From contig NZ_MKEK01000001.1 of NCBI RefSeq assembly GCF_001752395.1, positions 1,611,259 to 1,675,258 on the forward strand: a stretch of 64,000 nucleotides of DNA, written 5' to 3'. The position numbers and the translations under genes were made by a program. The stretch is from Rheinheimera salexigens. GTDB lineage: Bacteria > Pseudomonadota > Gammaproteobacteria > Enterobacterales > Alteromonadaceae. This document shows positions 3,357-61,157 of this stretch, in pieces. Below the pieces are notes generated by a model. It did no database searches and was not told the origin of the DNA. It saw nothing but the letters and a program-made list of their open reading frames with translations. The first letter of the stretch is position 1. Every line of letters begins with the position of its first letter.

Positions 3357-5582
3357 ATGCAGCACAATGATAAAGGTACAGCTTCAGCAAAAAGCTCAGC
3401 AAAAAACACCAACAAACTATCCTCAAAAACTGACGAGTTAGCCTATAAAACAGTGTTAGAGAAGATGGCGGATGGCGTGTGTTTTTTTGCTATCGACAGT
3501 TTGCAAATTCTTTACGTCAATCACGCACTGCAACAACAATTGGCCAGATCAAAACAGCAATTATTGGCGCTAAAAATCTTTAATATTCAACCCGACTTAG
3601 ATAAGGCTAGCTTTAAATTTTTGATCAAACCTTTAGTTGACGGCAGCTTGCAAGAACTGCATTTCAACTCTTGGTTATTAAACACTAAAGCTGAAAAAAT
3701 GCCGGTTGAACTCGCTATGTATGTACAAGAAAGTCGTGTTGGGCCTAAAATTATTATCGCTATTGCTCGTGACATGTCGAAACCGCAACATTTAGCTCAA
3801 TTAGATTGGGCGGCCGAAACCTATATCCATAACTTATTACAGCGTTCAGATGATGCTTTAGCCATTATCAATAAACAGCAACGGATAATTGATTGTAATC
3901 AGGCTGCCCTAAATTTATTTGGCTTTAAGCATCACCATGAAATGTTAGGGCTGATCCCGCGCCATATAGGTGTAGCAAAAAATCAGCTACAAGATACTGC
4001 ACCCTCAGCTGTTATTGAAAGAGCTTGGCAAGAAGGATATCAGCGCTTTAATTGGTTACATAAAACGCCGCGCAGTGCAGAAACTTTAATGGAAGTAACG
4101 TTAACACCCATCCTGTATAAAACTGAGCCTTGCTTACAAATATTGTGGCGAGACTTAACTGAAATTAAACAAAAAGAACACACAATTAAGCAGCTAGCTT
4201 ATTATGATGATTTAACGGGATTAGCCAATAAAAACTTATTTACAGCACGATTAAAATACTTATTAGCCGTAGCGAAAAATAATAACTATAGAGTAGCTGT
4301 TATTTATTTCGATATTATCAAGCTATCTGAAGTAAATGAAACAATGGGCTATATAGGCGGCGATATTACCATTAAAGCGGTAGCGCAACGTTTTGCCGAG
4401 CACATTCGCAATGTCGAAATGGATTCTAAATTTATTGATGATGAAATCAATAGCCATGTTGAGATTAATATTGATGATATTAATCGAGAATTTGACTCAC
4501 TAGCGCGAATACATACTGATAAGTTTTCATTAGCCGCCGTGTTAACCGATACTGCTGCAGCATCAATTTTAATCGAACGTATTCAACAAGTTATTAAGCA
4601 ACCGCTTAACATTATGGGCCATGAATTAACGGTTTCAGTTAGAGCCGGGGTGGCCATATATCCAGATGACGCTACCAATTTAGAAATGCTAATACGCGGC
4701 GCTAATATAGCGCTTGGTTTCGCCAAAGAGCAGCAATTAGCCCACTGTTTTTATAATTCTGCGTTAGGCGACAATGTGCAGCGCCGTGCTTTAATCACTA
4801 AACGCTTAGAGCATACGCTGATGGCAGCTAAGCCTAGTTTTAGCCTACGTTATCAACCACAAATTGATTTAACGACAGGACGACTCTGTGGTGCAGAAGT
4901 ACTTATTCGCTGGTTTGATGAAATATTGGGCTGGGTTACGCCAGATGTTTTTATCCCGCTAGCTGAAGAGCGGGGGTTAATTAATTCGATTACCACTTGG
5001 GTGATAGATACTGCGGGTATGCAGTTGATTAAATGGCAAAAAGTTGGTTATCAATTTCAACCGGATATGAATATAAAGTTAGCTGTCAATATTTCAGCAA
5101 AAAGTTTAGATATCCCAGATATTGTCCCGCGTTTTGTAGATAAAGTTAAACAGTTAGGTTTAACACCATTAGATTTTGAGATTGAATTAACTGAAACGGG
5201 CATTATGCGCGATCCTACTCAAGCCATTAATGTGTTACATCAGTTAAAACAGCAAGGCTTTAAATTGGCGATTGATGATTTTGGAACTGGCCATTCTTCA
5301 CTAAGTTATTTAAAAAATATTAATGCCGACATCTTAAAAATTGATATGTGTTTTGTTAAAACCTTACTGTCGGATAACACTAATCACGCTATTGTTAAAA
5401 CTGTTATTGCAACTGCAAAAATATTTGGCATGCAAACCTTAGCAGAAGGTGTTGAAGATAAGGCCATTGCAGAAGAATTAAGGCTATTAGGCTGTAATTA
5501 TGCCCAAGGTTACTATTATGCTAAGCCTTTAACCGCGATAGAGTTTGAACAAACATGGTTAGGGGCAACGTTAGCTAGCTAA
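3357..5582 (+). CDS. PAS-PAS-degenerate GGDEF-EAL protein, probable c-di-GMP phosphodiesterase
   Basis: Cytosolic signalling protein of 741 residues with no membrane segment. Two PAS-like sensor regions cover roughly residues 30-145 and 160-275. A GGDEF domain (about 280-465) begins with the usual YYDDLTGLANK motif but reads HTDKF at 386-390 where GGDEF should be, so cyclase activity is unlikely. The EAL domain (about 485-735) keeps the catalytic set: Glu 514 in AEVLIRW, NISAKSL, ELTE, DDFGTG, LKID and EGVED. The likely role is hydrolysis of c-di-GMP to pGpG, with the dead GGDEF domain possibly acting as a GTP sensor as in some known PDEs. The ATG follows AAGG about eight bases upstream. The window also carries a c-di-GMP riboswitch near 48.0 kb, so this nucleotide is in use here. 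Confidence 0.92.
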   Translation: MQHNDKGTASAKSSAKNTNKLSSKTDELAYKTVLEKMADGVCFFAIDSLQILYVNHALQQQLARSKQQLLALKIFNIQPDLDKASFKFLIKPLVDGSLQELHFNSWLLNTKAEKMPVELAMYVQESRVGPKIIIAIARDMSKPQHLAQLDWAAETYIHNLLQRSDDALAIINKQQRIIDCNQAALNLFGFKHHHEMLGLIPRHIGVAKNQLQDTAPSAVIERAWQEGYQRFNWLHKTPRSAETLMEVTLTPILYKTEPCLQILWRDLTEIKQKEHTIKQLAYYDDLTGLANKNLFTARLKYLLAVAKNNNYRVAVIYFDIIKLSEVNETMGYIGGDITIKAVAQRFAEHIRNVEMDSKFIDDEINSHVEINIDDINREFDSLARIHTDKFSLAAVLTDTAAASILIERIQQVIKQPLNIMGHELTVSVRAGVAIYPDDATNLEMLIRGANIALGFAKEQQLAHCFYNSALGDNVQRRALITKRLEHTLMAAKPSFSLRYQPQIDLTTGRLCGAEVLIRWFDEILGWVTPDVFIPLAEERGLINSITTWVIDTAGMQLIKWQKVGYQFQPDMNIKLAVNISAKSLDIPDIVPRFVDKVKQLGLTPLDFEIELTETGIMRDPTQAINVLHQLKQQGFKLAIDDFGTGHSSLSYLKNINADILKIDMCFVKTLLSDNTNHAIVKTVIATAKIFGMQTLAEGVEDKAIAEELRLLGCNYAQGYYYAKPLTAIEFEQTWLGATLAS

Positions 5583-47444: not shown

Positions 47445-47472
47445 AAAAAAGACGCCATTAGGCGTCTTTTTT
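47445..47472. terminator. bidirectional terminator between antiporter and DUF3718 genes
   Basis: 12-bp stem (aaaaaagacgcc / ggcgtctttttt) with a four-base loop, ending both convergent transcripts. Confidence 0.92.
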
Positions 47473-47488
47473 GAATTAAACAACGAGC

Positions 47489-47860
47489 TTAGCTTGCGCT
47501 ACGTTCTTTAATTGCACCAATAATTGGCGAAGCAGCAAAACCATTGCTTTGTGCCCATTCAACATCACCCGCAGCAGCAACTTGGCTACCAGGTAACTGA
47601 CTAATAATAAAGCCTGCAGCATCTACAGCATTATTTTTAATCGCATGGCGAACTAATGGTAAACCGTCACAAACAATACCTTCATACACATTACGTAAAC
47701 GTAAGCGATTGTCTGATAATGTTTTTCTTAAACTATTTTTATTATCAGCTGCAACATAAGAGCAAATAGATAGAGCTAATTGGTCATCAGCTAATACAGG
47801 AGTACTTACGAATGAGCTAGCAACGAAAGCAGCAGCAAGCGCAGCAAATTTAATGTTCAT
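47489..47860 (-). CDS. DUF3718 family secreted protein under c-di-GMP riboswitch
   Basis: Exported protein of 123 residues with a signal peptide cut after VLA (about residue 24). The mature part fits DUF3718: ICSYVAADNKNSLRKTLSDN, RLRNVYEGIVCDGLPLVRHA, with two Cys that can pair. Function unknown. GGAGCC sits before the ATG. A c-di-GMP-I riboswitch aptamer ends about 97 bases upstream on the same strand, so expression should respond to c-di-GMP, linking the protein to surface or biofilm life. The transcript ends at the hairpin shared with the antiporter. Confidence 0.82.
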   Translation of the reverse strand: MNIKFAALAAAFVASSFVSTPVLADDQLALSICSYVAADNKNSLRKTLSDNRLRLRNVYEGIVCDGLPLVRHAIKNNAVDAAGFIISQLPGSQVAAAGDVEWAQSNGFAASPIIGAIKERSAS

Positions 47861-47955
47861 AATCAGGCTCCAAAAGAGTTATCAATGTAAGAAATCATAT
47901 GAAAGGACAGCTTTAACGCCGTTTAACTCTGGAACAAACAGATTAAACATCGCTT

Positions 47956-48047
47956 TGGCGACGGTAGCCCAGCTATCTTAGCATTGTAATAATGCCTTAG
48001 ATCTGAGGCTTTGCGTGTACACCTTTTCAGATGACTTGCCTTTCTTG
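47956..48047 (-). promoter_or_regulatory. c-di-GMP-I (GEMM) riboswitch aptamer
   Basis: Read on the minus strand, the leader shows the GEMM-I core in order: AAAGGCAA (48043-48036); a hairpin GTCATCT-GAAA-AGGTGTAC (48035-48017) with the conserved GAAA tetraloop and one bulge; the invariant ACGCAAAGCC (48016-48007) then TC; a CTAA receptor segment; a second hairpin GGCATT/AATGCT; AAGATAGCTGG; and GCTACCGTCGCC (47968-47957). This matches the Vibrio Vc2-type aptamer in sequence and fold. The gene it serves is the DUF3718 gene downstream. The expression platform is unclear: a following hairpin (near 47947-47920) lacks a T run. Confidence 0.92.
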
Positions 48048-48103
48048 GACGCGCATTCTAATCACTGCTGATTTTATAAGCAAGTACAATCGTAAACTTG
48101 TAG

Positions 48104-49585
48104 TTATTTGTTAATTATAGCTGTAACGCCATCTTGCCAACGTTGATAGAGGCTATCAGCTTGTAGCGGGGGAATTTTAGGATTGTACTGTTGATTAGCT
48201 TGCCAAACTTGCTGTATATCACTTAGGTCAGTGAAATAGCCTAATTGTAACCCTGCTAAAAATGCTGCACCTAATACACTGGTCTCAGCCGTGTGACAGC
48301 GTTGCAAGGGTTGTTGAGTAATATCGGCTAAAGCCTGTAAAAACCAGCTGTTTTCCGTCATCCCGCCATCCACTCTGAGTATATCCAGGGCAATTCCATC
48401 TGCTGCCATTGCCTGTAATAAATCGCGACTTTGATAACAGACACTTAATAAAGCGGCGGCGGCTAGCTCTGCTTTACCGGTATTGCGGGTCATACCAAAT
48501 ATTGCGGCTTGCGCATTGGGTTGCCAATAAGGTGCGCCAAGGCCGGTAAAAGCGGGAATTAATAATTCAGATTGTTGATAAGGCACTTGTTGCGCTAATG
48601 CTTCGGTGTCTGCAGCCTGCTGGATAATACCCAGTTTATCCCGCAGCCATTGCACAATAGCGCCGGCCATAAAAATACTACCCTCAAGGGCATAGGTTGG
48701 TTTAGCGTTAAGTCGCCAAGCAAGGGTGCTGATTAGTTGCTGCTGGCTAATGAATACCTTAGAGCCGGTATTAAGCATACTAAAACAACCCGTGCCATAA
48801 GTACTTTTAGCCATGCCAGGGGTAATACAAGCTTGACCTAATAATGCCGCTTGTTGATCGCCAATCATGGCGAATATGGGGATAGCACTACCAAATAAGT
48901 TAGTATCGGTATAACCAAATTCAGCTGCGTTATCTTTTATTTCGCCAAGTAATGAATCCGGAATATCAAATAAGCTTAGTAGCTTAGGATCCCACTCTTG
49001 GGTATGTAAGTTAAATAATAAGGTTCGACTGGCATTCGTGGCATCCGTAGCATGCACTTTACCGGCGGTTAAGCGCCATAAAAGATAGCTATCAACAGTG
49101 CCAAAGCAAAGTTCGGCATTATCGGCAGCCACTCGCGCATCCGGTATATTATCCAGTAACCAGGCTAATTTAGTGGCGGAAAAATACGGGTCAAGTCGTA
49201 AGCCGGTACGTTGCTGAATATCAGTTAAATGACCTTGCTGCTCTAACTGCAGGCAAGTTTGTGCAGTACGTCTATCTTGCCAGACAATGGCATTATATAA
49301 GGTTTTTCCTGTGCATTTATGCCACAGCAAGCTTGTTTCGCGCTGATTAGTTATAGCAATAGCGGCAATATCAGTCGCGTTAAGTTGGGCTTGTTTCAGT
49401 GCAGTGACCATACAATTATAAACACTTTGCCATAATTGCTCGGGGTTTTGCTCGACCCAACCGGGCTGTGGATAAATTAACTCGACTTCTTGTTGAGCTA
49501 TTGTGATAGCCTTAAGTTGTCTATTATAGATAATAACGCGACTTGACGTCGTGCCTTGATCAATTGCAAGAATATATTCAGACAT
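48104..49585 (-). CDS. glpK: glycerol kinase
   Basis: FGGY-family kinase of 493 residues that phosphorylates glycerol to sn-glycerol-3-phosphate. It begins YILAIDQGTTSSRVIIY, with AITNQRETSLLW, DATNASRTLLFNL, STYGTGCFSMLNTG and the C-terminal LRVDGGMTENSWFLQ. No glpF or glpD lies next to it, so it seems to be a single-gene unit. Confidence 0.96.
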   Translation of the reverse strand: MSEYILAIDQGTTSSRVIIYNRQLKAITIAQQEVELIYPQPGWVEQNPEQLWQSVYNCMVTALKQAQLNATDIAAIAITNQRETSLLWHKCTGKTLYNAIVWQDRRTAQTCLQLEQQGHLTDIQQRTGLRLDPYFSATKLAWLLDNIPDARVAADNAELCFGTVDSYLLWRLTAGKVHATDATNASRTLLFNLHTQEWDPKLLSLFDIPDSLLGEIKDNAAEFGYTDTNLFGSAIPIFAMIGDQQAALLGQACITPGMAKSTYGTGCFSMLNTGSKVFISQQQLISTLAWRLNAKPTYALEGSIFMAGAIVQWLRDKLGIIQQAADTEALAQQVPYQQSELLIPAFTGLGAPYWQPNAQAAIFGMTRNTGKAELAAAALLSVCYQSRDLLQAMAADGIALDILRVDGGMTENSWFLQALADITQQPLQRCHTAETSVLGAAFLAGLQLGYFTDLSDIQQVWQANQQYNPKIPPLQADSLYQRWQDGVTAIINK

Positions 49586-59385: not shown

Positions 59386-59548
59386 TTATATATGCATTTG
59401 CTCAGGTGTCGTTCAGCAAAATTCTCTAAAATGCTCGATAACGATATACATAGGTAGTAAATGCAAAATTAATGCATTTAGACGGCTAAAGGGCTGTTGC
59501 TAATAGTTAAAAAACGCGATATTGTAGCGCTGTCAATCGAACACGATA
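59386..59548. other. intergenic stretch upstream of the lysine riboswitch
   Basis: Noncoding region expected to contain the lysC promoter. A palindrome-like atgcaaaattaatgcat lies near 59462-59478. No gene was seen; promoter boxes could not be fixed by eye. Confidence 0.4.
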
Positions 59549-59717
59549 GACCAGAAGAGGCGCATTAGCCAGGTAGTTGTTGTTAGAAGTCTATACTTCG
59601 TAGCGGCAATAAGGGGGACTAATGCCGAGAAAACATCAGCTATAGAACTGTTGTTTTCGGTCGTTTAGGCTGAATCCTGACGACTGTCACCTAGTACTTG
59701 GTGGAGAGCTTCTGGCC
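59549..59717 (+). promoter_or_regulatory. lysine riboswitch (L box) of lysC
   Basis: The leader matches the E. coli lysC L box in order: P1 5' strand gaccagaag (59549-59557) then AGGCGCATTAGCC; AAGGGGGACTAATGCCGAG; GGCTGAATCCTGACGACTGT then CACC; and TTGGTGGAGAGCTTCTGGCC, whose cttctggcc (59709-59717) closes P1. Lysine binding would lower lysC expression. No T-run hairpin follows, so control may be at translation, as in E. coli; a hairpin tttgcta/tagcaaa near 59755-59769 may help. Confidence 0.93.
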
Positions 59718-59807
59718 TTTGTTAATTTCACAAGCGATCTACACCAATCTCGTTTTGCTATTAGCAAATGCCACGCTCTGCTTATTGTATTTTATAAGGA
59801 GAGAACC

Positions 59808-61157
59808 TTGCCTAATTTAACCGTTGCCAAATTTGGTGGCAGTAGCGTCGCTAATTATACTGCTATGTCACGCTGCGCCGATATTGTTTTAAGTCAACCT
59901 GCTATTCGCGTAGTTGTGGTTAGCGCCTGTACAGGCGTGACTAATTTGTTAGTGGATATTACCCAGTTTTCCAGTGTGGACGCACGTTTATCTGCTTACA
60001 GCGGTATTGAAAATATTACCTTTGCTGTTATTGCCAAGTTAAAACAAACTGATGGTGTAATGGCAAGTACTCAAGCATTATTACAGCGCTTAAAACACCT
60101 AGTTGAACAGCATGATCATGTGTATTCAGCGGCAGAAAAAGATGAAATAGTGTCTTTTGGTGAGCGTTTAAGTTCAGTTTTATTTAGTCAAGTTTTGCTT
60201 GAACGGAATATTGCCGCTTGCTGTTTTGATGTCAGGCAAGTCATGCGTACTGATAGCCATTTTGGTAAAGCCGAGCCTAATATCAAAGCCATAAAAGTAC
60301 TCTGTTTAGAAAAGCTTACGCCTTTATTAGCCGAGTCAGTCGTGGTTACTCAGGGCTTTGTTGGCGCCAATGAATTAGACCAAACAACGACCTTAGGCCG
60401 AGGCGGCTCAGATTATAGTGCGGCTTTATTAGCCGAGGCGTTAGCTGCGGATGTAGTACAAATTTGGACCGATGTCGTTGGCATTTTCACCACTGATCCG
60501 CGTTTAACCGAACATGCCCGCTGTATTAAAGAAATAAGCTTTGATGAAGCCGCAGAAATGGCAACCTTTGGCGCTAGGGTAATTCATCCGGCCACTTTGT
60601 TGCCTGCAATACGGCAAAATATAGCAGTGTTTGTAGGATCTAGTCGGGAGCCTGAATCCGGTGGAACCTGGATTGCTAAAGAGGTTGCTGAACGACCAGC
60701 ATACCGGGCGATAGCGCTACGAAAATCGCAAACCCTGATCACTTTAAAAAGCCCTGAGATGCTGCACGCAGCTGGTTTTTTAACTCGTGTATTTGATATT
60801 TTGAGTCGGCATGAAATATCTATCGATTTAGTAACCACCTCTGAGATAAGTGTCGCGTTAACCTTAGACCAAGGTGGAATGACAACGGCGTTTAGTTCCG
60901 ATATTGATTTAGCATTATTTGAACTAGAAAAGTTTTGTGATGTAACAGTCGAGCGCGGTTTAAGTTTAGTGGCGGTAATTGGCAATCATTTACATAGCAA
61001 CCAAGGTGTAACCGGCGAGCTATTTAATACCTTAGAGCGGATAAATATGCGCTTAATTTGCCATGGTGCCTCTAAACATAATTTATGTTTTTTAGTTCAA
61101 GATACTGAAGCGGTAGATGTAGTAAAACAGTTACACCAAAGTTTATTTGCCGCTTAA
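59808..61157 (+). CDS. lysC: lysine-sensitive aspartate kinase III
   Basis: First enzyme of lysine, methionine and threonine synthesis, phosphorylating aspartate. At 449 residues it has VAKFGGSSVANYTAM, FGERLSSVLFS, TLGRGGSDYSAALLAEAL and C-terminal ACT domains for lysine feedback (FLTRVFDILSRHEISIDLVT). It starts with TTG at 59808, supported by AAGGAGAG; there is no ATG nearby in frame. The lysine riboswitch upstream and the ACT domains give two layers of lysine control. Confidence 0.95.
   Translation: MPNLTVAKFGGSSVANYTAMSRCADIVLSQPAIRVVVVSACTGVTNLLVDITQFSSVDARLSAYSGIENITFAVIAKLKQTDGVMASTQALLQRLKHLVEQHDHVYSAAEKDEIVSFGERLSSVLFSQVLLERNIAACCFDVRQVMRTDSHFGKAEPNIKAIKVLCLEKLTPLLAESVVVTQGFVGANELDQTTTLGRGGSDYSAALLAEALAADVVQIWTDVVGIFTTDPRLTEHARCIKEISFDEAAEMATFGARVIHPATLLPAIRQNIAVFVGSSREPESGGTWIAKEVAERPAYRAIALRKSQTLITLKSPEMLHAAGFLTRVFDILSRHEISIDLVTTSEISVALTLDQGGMTTAFSSDIDLALFELEKFCDVTVERGLSLVAVIGNHLHSNQGVTGELFNTLERINMRLICHGASKHNLCFLVQDTEAVDVVKQLHQSLFAA

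Follow-up and report, generated by a model that had tools for sequence, protein, structure and literature searches.

Does a c-di-GMP riboswitch control the gene of a small DUF3718 protein in Rheinheimera salexigens, and if it does, in which direction and by what means? The locus lies in a 64,000-nucleotide stretch of contig NZ_MKEK01000001.1 (positions 1,611,259 to 1,675,258), which we call the window and whose numbering we use throughout. A first-pass annotation, made from the letters of this DNA, had read a c-di-GMP-I aptamer upstream of the gene and proposed that the one controls the other. Our analysis makes it quite probable that a c-di-GMP-I (GEMM-I) riboswitch opens an mRNA with one gene, which encodes a small and probably exported DUF3718 protein; a distal box in the leader is the putative switch. 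Computation establishes the aptamer, the gene, a conserved promoter pattern and the pairing of aptamer with gene. Three features define the locus:

47960..48050, minus strand: c-di-GMP-I riboswitch aptamer (RF01051, 66.0 bits, model positions 1-87 of 87)
47489..47860, minus strand: gene of the DUF3718 protein, 123 aa, with an N-terminus that resembles a signal peptide by eye (PF12514, 67.8 bits)
47445..47472, minus strand: intrinsic-terminator-like stem after the gene (12 pairs, 5 G-C, T run)

Using Infernal, we obtained a covariance-model match to RF01051 at 48050-47960 on the minus strand, untruncated, with a score of 66.0 bits (E 1e-10) against a gathering score of 35, which places the element in the c-di-GMP-I class. 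The annotation had predicted such a match at 48047-47956; the match was found at full length and its ends differ slightly. The GEMM-I landmarks that had been claimed on the minus strand are present in the aligned aptamer sequence, among them the GAAA-capped first hairpin and the ACGCAAAGC junction, both invariant in 29 leaders. No second RF01051 match was found in the 3.44-Mb genome among the 150 of 276 first-look candidates that were scored. The window holds one other Rfam match, a lysine riboswitch (RF00168, 88.1 bits) at 59547-59719 on the plus strand, which is followed by an amino-acid kinase/ACT protein (59808-61157, plus strand) in an aspartokinase-like arrangement.

Might this RNA sense another cyclic dinucleotide, for example cGAMP, as riboswitches of the GEMM-Ib type do? 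A change at the position of G20 in Vc2 of Vibrio cholerae marks the cGAMP binders. We take one G of the window aptamer to be the equivalent of Vc2 G20, and this presumed equivalent, whose mapping is our own, is G in 29 of 29 aligned leaders. GEMM-I class riboswitches of Geobacter do bind cGAMP, according to an excerpt of PMC8835794, but the invariant G speaks against such sensing and we consider it highly improbable here. Letters that match the ligand-contact residues G20, A47 and C92 named for Vc2 in part of PMC4744006 are present in the window aptamer, at positions that we assign tentatively. As for c-di-GMP, the ligand that we favor, the genome contains 34 GGDEF matches, which suggests that the molecule is made in this host. 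Within the window a GGDEF domain was matched as two adjoining pieces at about 4197-4736 on the plus strand (contig 1615455-1615994) in one 758-aa open frame; it is perhaps an insertion-bearing or degenerate domain.

The order of the locus is simple: glpK upstream, ending at 48104, then the aptamer, the lone DUF3718 gene and the terminator-like stem. The earlier reading of this gene as the only one before a terminator holds, with a single frame at 47860-47489 and then the stem at 47472-47445 on the minus strand. Our scan listed five terminator-like sites against 3.0 (sd 1.5) in shuffles, and the stem is therefore distinguished by its length and not by the count. The gap between the Infernal aptamer end and the gene is 99 nt (47959-47861); the proximity noted earlier thus stands, and the figure of 97 given for it does not.

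The protein belongs to DUF3718, with residues 32-92 matching PF12514 at 67.8 bits against a curated cut-off of 22.5. The Pfam entry states unknown function and nothing else, and a search of PMC found no paper that names DUF3718 or PF12514. Among its relatives are 111 homologues that are 57-99% identical across 56-100% of the query. The protein is small and probably exported, and it has two invariant cysteines. Its predicted fold is ankyrin-like and weakly supported. No Pfam ankyrin profile matched the protein at E <= 0.001, and a PDB sequence search up to E 1 returned a single match, the engineered protein OR264 (E 0.26). We did not adopt ankyrin homology.

A riboswitch of this class is expected in the 5' leader of its gene, downstream of a promoter, and the region just upstream of the aptamer contains two candidate promoter elements:

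48078..48083, minus strand: candidate -35 element TTGCTT (TTGCNN in 31 of 31 leaders, with 17 nt between it and the -10 element)
48055..48060, minus strand: candidate -10 element TAGAAT (TANNNT in 31 of 31 leaders)

In the window, TTGCTT-17-TAGAAT ends 4 nt 5' of the aptamer model, and TTGCNN-17-TANNNT occurs 3-6 nt 5' of the aptamer in every one of 31 leaders (the window and 30 named loci). This pattern was composed after the same leaders had been viewed and a consensus promoter scan of the window did not list the site, so the promoter argument rests on conservation. We infer a transcription start near 48048-48046, within a few bases of the aptamer. The first-pass annotation had held that a start downstream of the aptamer would undo its proposal; a promoter pattern upstream of the aptamer in 31 of 31 leaders lends such a start no support.

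The pairing of aptamer and gene was surveyed in 60 genomes, namely that of the window and 59 relatives, from which 82 riboswitch matches and 111 DUF3718 matches were listed; the riboswitch search in the relatives used stricter filters, with 60 candidates scored per genome in nearly all. All 31 genomes of the genus, with that of the window among them, have exactly one riboswitch that precedes a DUF3718 gene in the same orientation, at a distance of 189-223 nt from the domain match. For independent genomes about 0.013 links of this kind would be expected by chance across the genus, though these genomes are not independent. Two other genera of the family contribute three more links and the 24 genomes outside the family contribute none, which brings the total to 34 linked riboswitches of the 82 listed. 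An aptamer also stands upstream of the gene in all 30 named loci of close homologues, mainly from Rheinheimera, Arsukibacterium and Alishewanella; this set shares some genomes with the 31 and the two are not independent. The survey of DUF3718 leaders that the annotation had proposed is thus positive in both of these overlapping sets. The link is not universal for DUF3718, since the window genome has three such genes, two of them besides the window gene, and one riboswitch match. In six loci (L094-L099, positions 3474-3518) the DUF3718 gene is followed, about 100 nt on, by a guanidine-II riboswitch; the one in L094 stands before a frame of 104 aa that resembles an SMR transporter by eye.

One possibility is that the intact aptamer is idle in the cell, with ligand binding that expression does not follow. 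Bc1 of Bacillus thuringiensis behaves in this way, as it binds c-di-GMP while its downstream genes are unresponsive (excerpt of PMC11218506). On the other hand, the aptamer, the promoter pattern and the gene pairing are all kept in the window and the 30 named loci, and an idle element would not need them; we therefore regard this explanation as improbable. Control of the DUF3718 gene by the riboswitch, as first proposed, is supported by the model match, the lone gene, the promoter pattern and the pairing.

The arrangement extends beyond the genus. We assembled 137 loci from the best-scoring riboswitches of two listings and 80 hand-picked stretches, and examined 128 of them, the other nine having no orienting motif. 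A DUF3718 frame follows the riboswitch in 30 of the 128, including 22 of the 90 loci outside the genus; the loci are not a random sample, as some of the hand-picked stretches were chosen for a link already evident from coordinates and 20, in the genus, for the lack of one, and these are therefore counts and not frequencies. DUF3718-linked riboswitches were observed in 13 more genera of the family; the names returned by protein searches point to Colwellia, Thalassotalea and Thalassomonas. On one contig (L159, 35598-37191) a tandem pair of riboswitch-DUF3718 units fits within about 1.5 kb.

We scanned one downstream frame each for 20 of the 98 unlinked loci, taking the longest that starts within 600 nt, which is not always certainly the first gene. 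MotY was matched in three and a spore-coat U domain in two. Single frames matched a GbpA-like LPMO, a GGDEF domain, an AAA/ParA-like ATPase, an alginate lyase, a PKD-domain protein, a subtilase, a ShlB-type transporter of two-partner secretion and a cellulose-binding protein; seven of the 20 had no match. The usual targets of c-di-GMP riboswitches are motility and adherence (excerpt of PMC6366702), and several of the scanned frames agree with them. Because riboswitches of the same class, within the same family or order, precede MotY, GGDEF, LPMO, subtilase, alginate lyase and transporter frames, we suggest that DUF3718 may be part of a surface or motility program.

Some of these loci bear separate mention. 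The motY-like frames, with MotY_N and OmpA domains, are in L034, L040 and L121, and proteins that resemble MotY by eye follow further riboswitches of the genus (L041-L046 and L048-L050). In L070 the aptamer precedes a GGDEF frame with the N-terminus MKYHDS (confirmed for L070, with similar loci identified by likeness), a possible feedback loop. ParA/MinD-like ATPase frames, an unusual riboswitch target, lie 146-231 nt after the ACGC motif of the aptamer in L039 (confirmed) and in L079, L155 and L165 (by likeness).

How might ligand binding reach the gene? After the aptamer the leader runs through a short hairpin, a variable stretch, a CCUUUC box and the Shine-Dalgarno sequence GGAG:

48039..48044, minus strand: GAAAGG in the 5' strand of the aptamer, a candidate for pairing with the distal box (complete pairing over six positions in 28 of 29 leaders)
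47948..47963, minus strand: hairpin directly after the aptamer, CGUCGC-CAAA-GCGAUG (terminator-like stem, 6 pairs)
47927..47935, minus strand: GUUCCAGAG, a weak candidate for an anti-Shine-Dalgarno segment (it gives the best helix with the ribosome site; p = 0.09, 200 shuffles)
47901..47906, minus strand: candidate distal anti-aptamer box CCUUUC, complementary to 48044-48039
47868..47871, minus strand: Shine-Dalgarno sequence GGAG, read from the sequence

We propose that without c-di-GMP the aptamer 5' strand GAAAGG would pair with the distal box CCUUUC, some 45-75 nt before the start codon. With c-di-GMP bound, the aptamer would retain its 5' strand, the leader would refold and access to the ribosome site would change.

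Two simpler elements were considered. The stem directly after the aptamer is kept, by eye, in divergent leaders, and in several relatives it has no T run; we therefore rejected it as a terminator that could serve as the main mechanism, and control in the window's genus is probably at translation. A possible anti-Shine-Dalgarno helix, GAGUUA/UAACUC, looks consistent when judged by eye; none of 29 leaders reached p 0.05 for it in a shuffle test, and it was set aside.

The distal box was followed through an alignment of 29 leaders that excludes L096 and L099. In all 29, the stretch most complementary to the 5' strand falls 46-77 nt before the start codon, even though the sequence in between differs largely from group to group. 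In the best register, all six GAAAGG/CCUUUC pairs form (G-U allowed) in 28 of the 29 leaders, with one mismatch in L110, and L116 has a full compensatory change from A-U to G-C at one paired position. Taken singly, nine of the 29 show complementarity at p <= 0.05, or seven with a slightly different 5' segment. The window's own box is no better than chance (p = 0.63), so that the case for it rests on conservation and co-variation in the relatives.

This co-variation is seen when distant DUF3718 leaders are included. Their aptamer 5' strand is AGAAAAGG in a type that we call C1 (12 leaders) and GAAACGG in a second, C2 (7 leaders), and the distal box is GUUUUUUCUUU in C1 and CCGUUUC-like in C2. 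The 5' strand and the box, which lies 39-77 nt before the start codon, thus differ together across the three types and stay complementary; one further leader, L119, fits none of them. When 5' strands were exchanged between types, the mean helix score was 19.3, 21.9 and 17.3 with the own-type strand (29, 12 and 7 leaders) as compared to 12.4-14.6 with those of the other types. This comparison carries no significance test and amounts to three lineages whose types are defined by the 5' strand itself, and the C1 box is at the same time a T run; L134, for want of a match at the aptamer end, and nine Rheinheimera-type loci already represented in the named set are excluded from it.

Within a fixed 110-nt stretch, complementarity at p <= 0.05 was found for 12 of 30 DUF3718-linked riboswitches as compared to nine of 95 unlinked ones (three of the 98 had no 5' motif), and four of those nine (L179-L182) precede the same gene. 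The whole window leader is not unusually stable (z -1.05; 25 of 200 shuffles as stable). The joint change of 5' strand and box across three leader types points to the distal box as a possible switching element.

Folding was used to approach the question of whether c-di-GMP turns the gene on or off. With the aptamer forced, the ribosome site was harder to open than with the distal helix forced in 26 of 28 leaders (3 at +0.0), by a mean of +2.0 kcal/mol; L115, whose start is misplaced in the alignment, was left out here and kept among the 29 leaders of the complementarity, swap and anti-Shine-Dalgarno tests. Against 30 interior shuffles of each leader, 10 of the 28 had a natural value that stands apart at a fraction of 0.10 or less, namely the window, L090, L117 and seven of eight Arsukibacterium leaders, themselves closely related; the eighth of these, L118, was not among the 10. 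A separate folding run on 29 leaders gave a mixed outcome. As the shuffle control backs 10 of 28 leaders, we do not rely on a direction read from folding. An OFF switch, in which c-di-GMP would lower expression, is our reading for the window's genus, at little better than even odds.

An ON switch, in which c-di-GMP would increase the expression of DUF3718 through antitermination or through release of the ribosome site, is a rival reading whose prospects fall somewhat short of even. In the C1 leaders the distal box doubles as a T run, and when their transcripts were ended there, 11 of 12 folded a stem that uses aptamer bases (without a shuffle control); the exception, L120, forms a short hairpin of its own next to an aptamer that stays intact. 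This terminator-type fold predicts ON control in those relatives. Lowered c-di-GMP reduces Vc1-dependent expression in Vibrio cholerae, as given in an excerpt of PMC4744006. The window's genus, however, has no such conserved T run, and its opening energies lean the opposite way, mostly within the shuffle control.

Three known riboswitches of the class are its closest counterparts. Like the window element, Vc1 of Vibrio cholerae is a class I aptamer located early in the leader of a gene for a secreted protein, GbpA, and it has been shown to act in cells, whereas the window riboswitch is known from sequence; Vc1 has 244 bp between transcription start and start codon as compared to about 190 in the window, counted from the putative start (Vc1 data from an excerpt of PMC4744006). 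The Vc1 gene product is unrelated to DUF3718, and a GbpA-like LPMO also follows the riboswitch in one scanned relative, L047. Vc2, before VC1722 of the same species, shares the aptamer class, the single aptamer and a Gram-negative host and precedes a different gene. Vc1 and Vc2 respond in opposite directions, neither of them by termination in the account excerpted from PMC6366702. Bc1 likewise has a class I aptamer and a long expression platform, but it carries two intrinsic terminators (excerpt of PMC11218506) where the window leader has no conserved one.

The window riboswitch is therefore a standard member of its class, and what is new is the target family; more tentatively, a covarying distal switch element would be a second novelty. 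Since the pairing of aptamer with DUF3718 recurs in related bacteria, there is good reason to regard the protein as a candidate c-di-GMP response. A broader picture, which we offer as speculative and somewhat doubtful, is that DUF3718 is a recurrent and dedicated c-di-GMP output of this bacterial family. Its exported, ankyrin-like proteins would fall into two clades that stand apart in the protein tree. In both, class I riboswitches would read the ligand by keeping the aptamer 5' strand away from a covarying distal box or by letting it go; high c-di-GMP would turn translation OFF in the Rheinheimera group, and relatives would use a terminator-type platform. A riboswitch that is kept in all 31 examined genomes of the genus and was met with in 13 further genera marks the unstudied DUF3718 family as a likely target of c-di-GMP.
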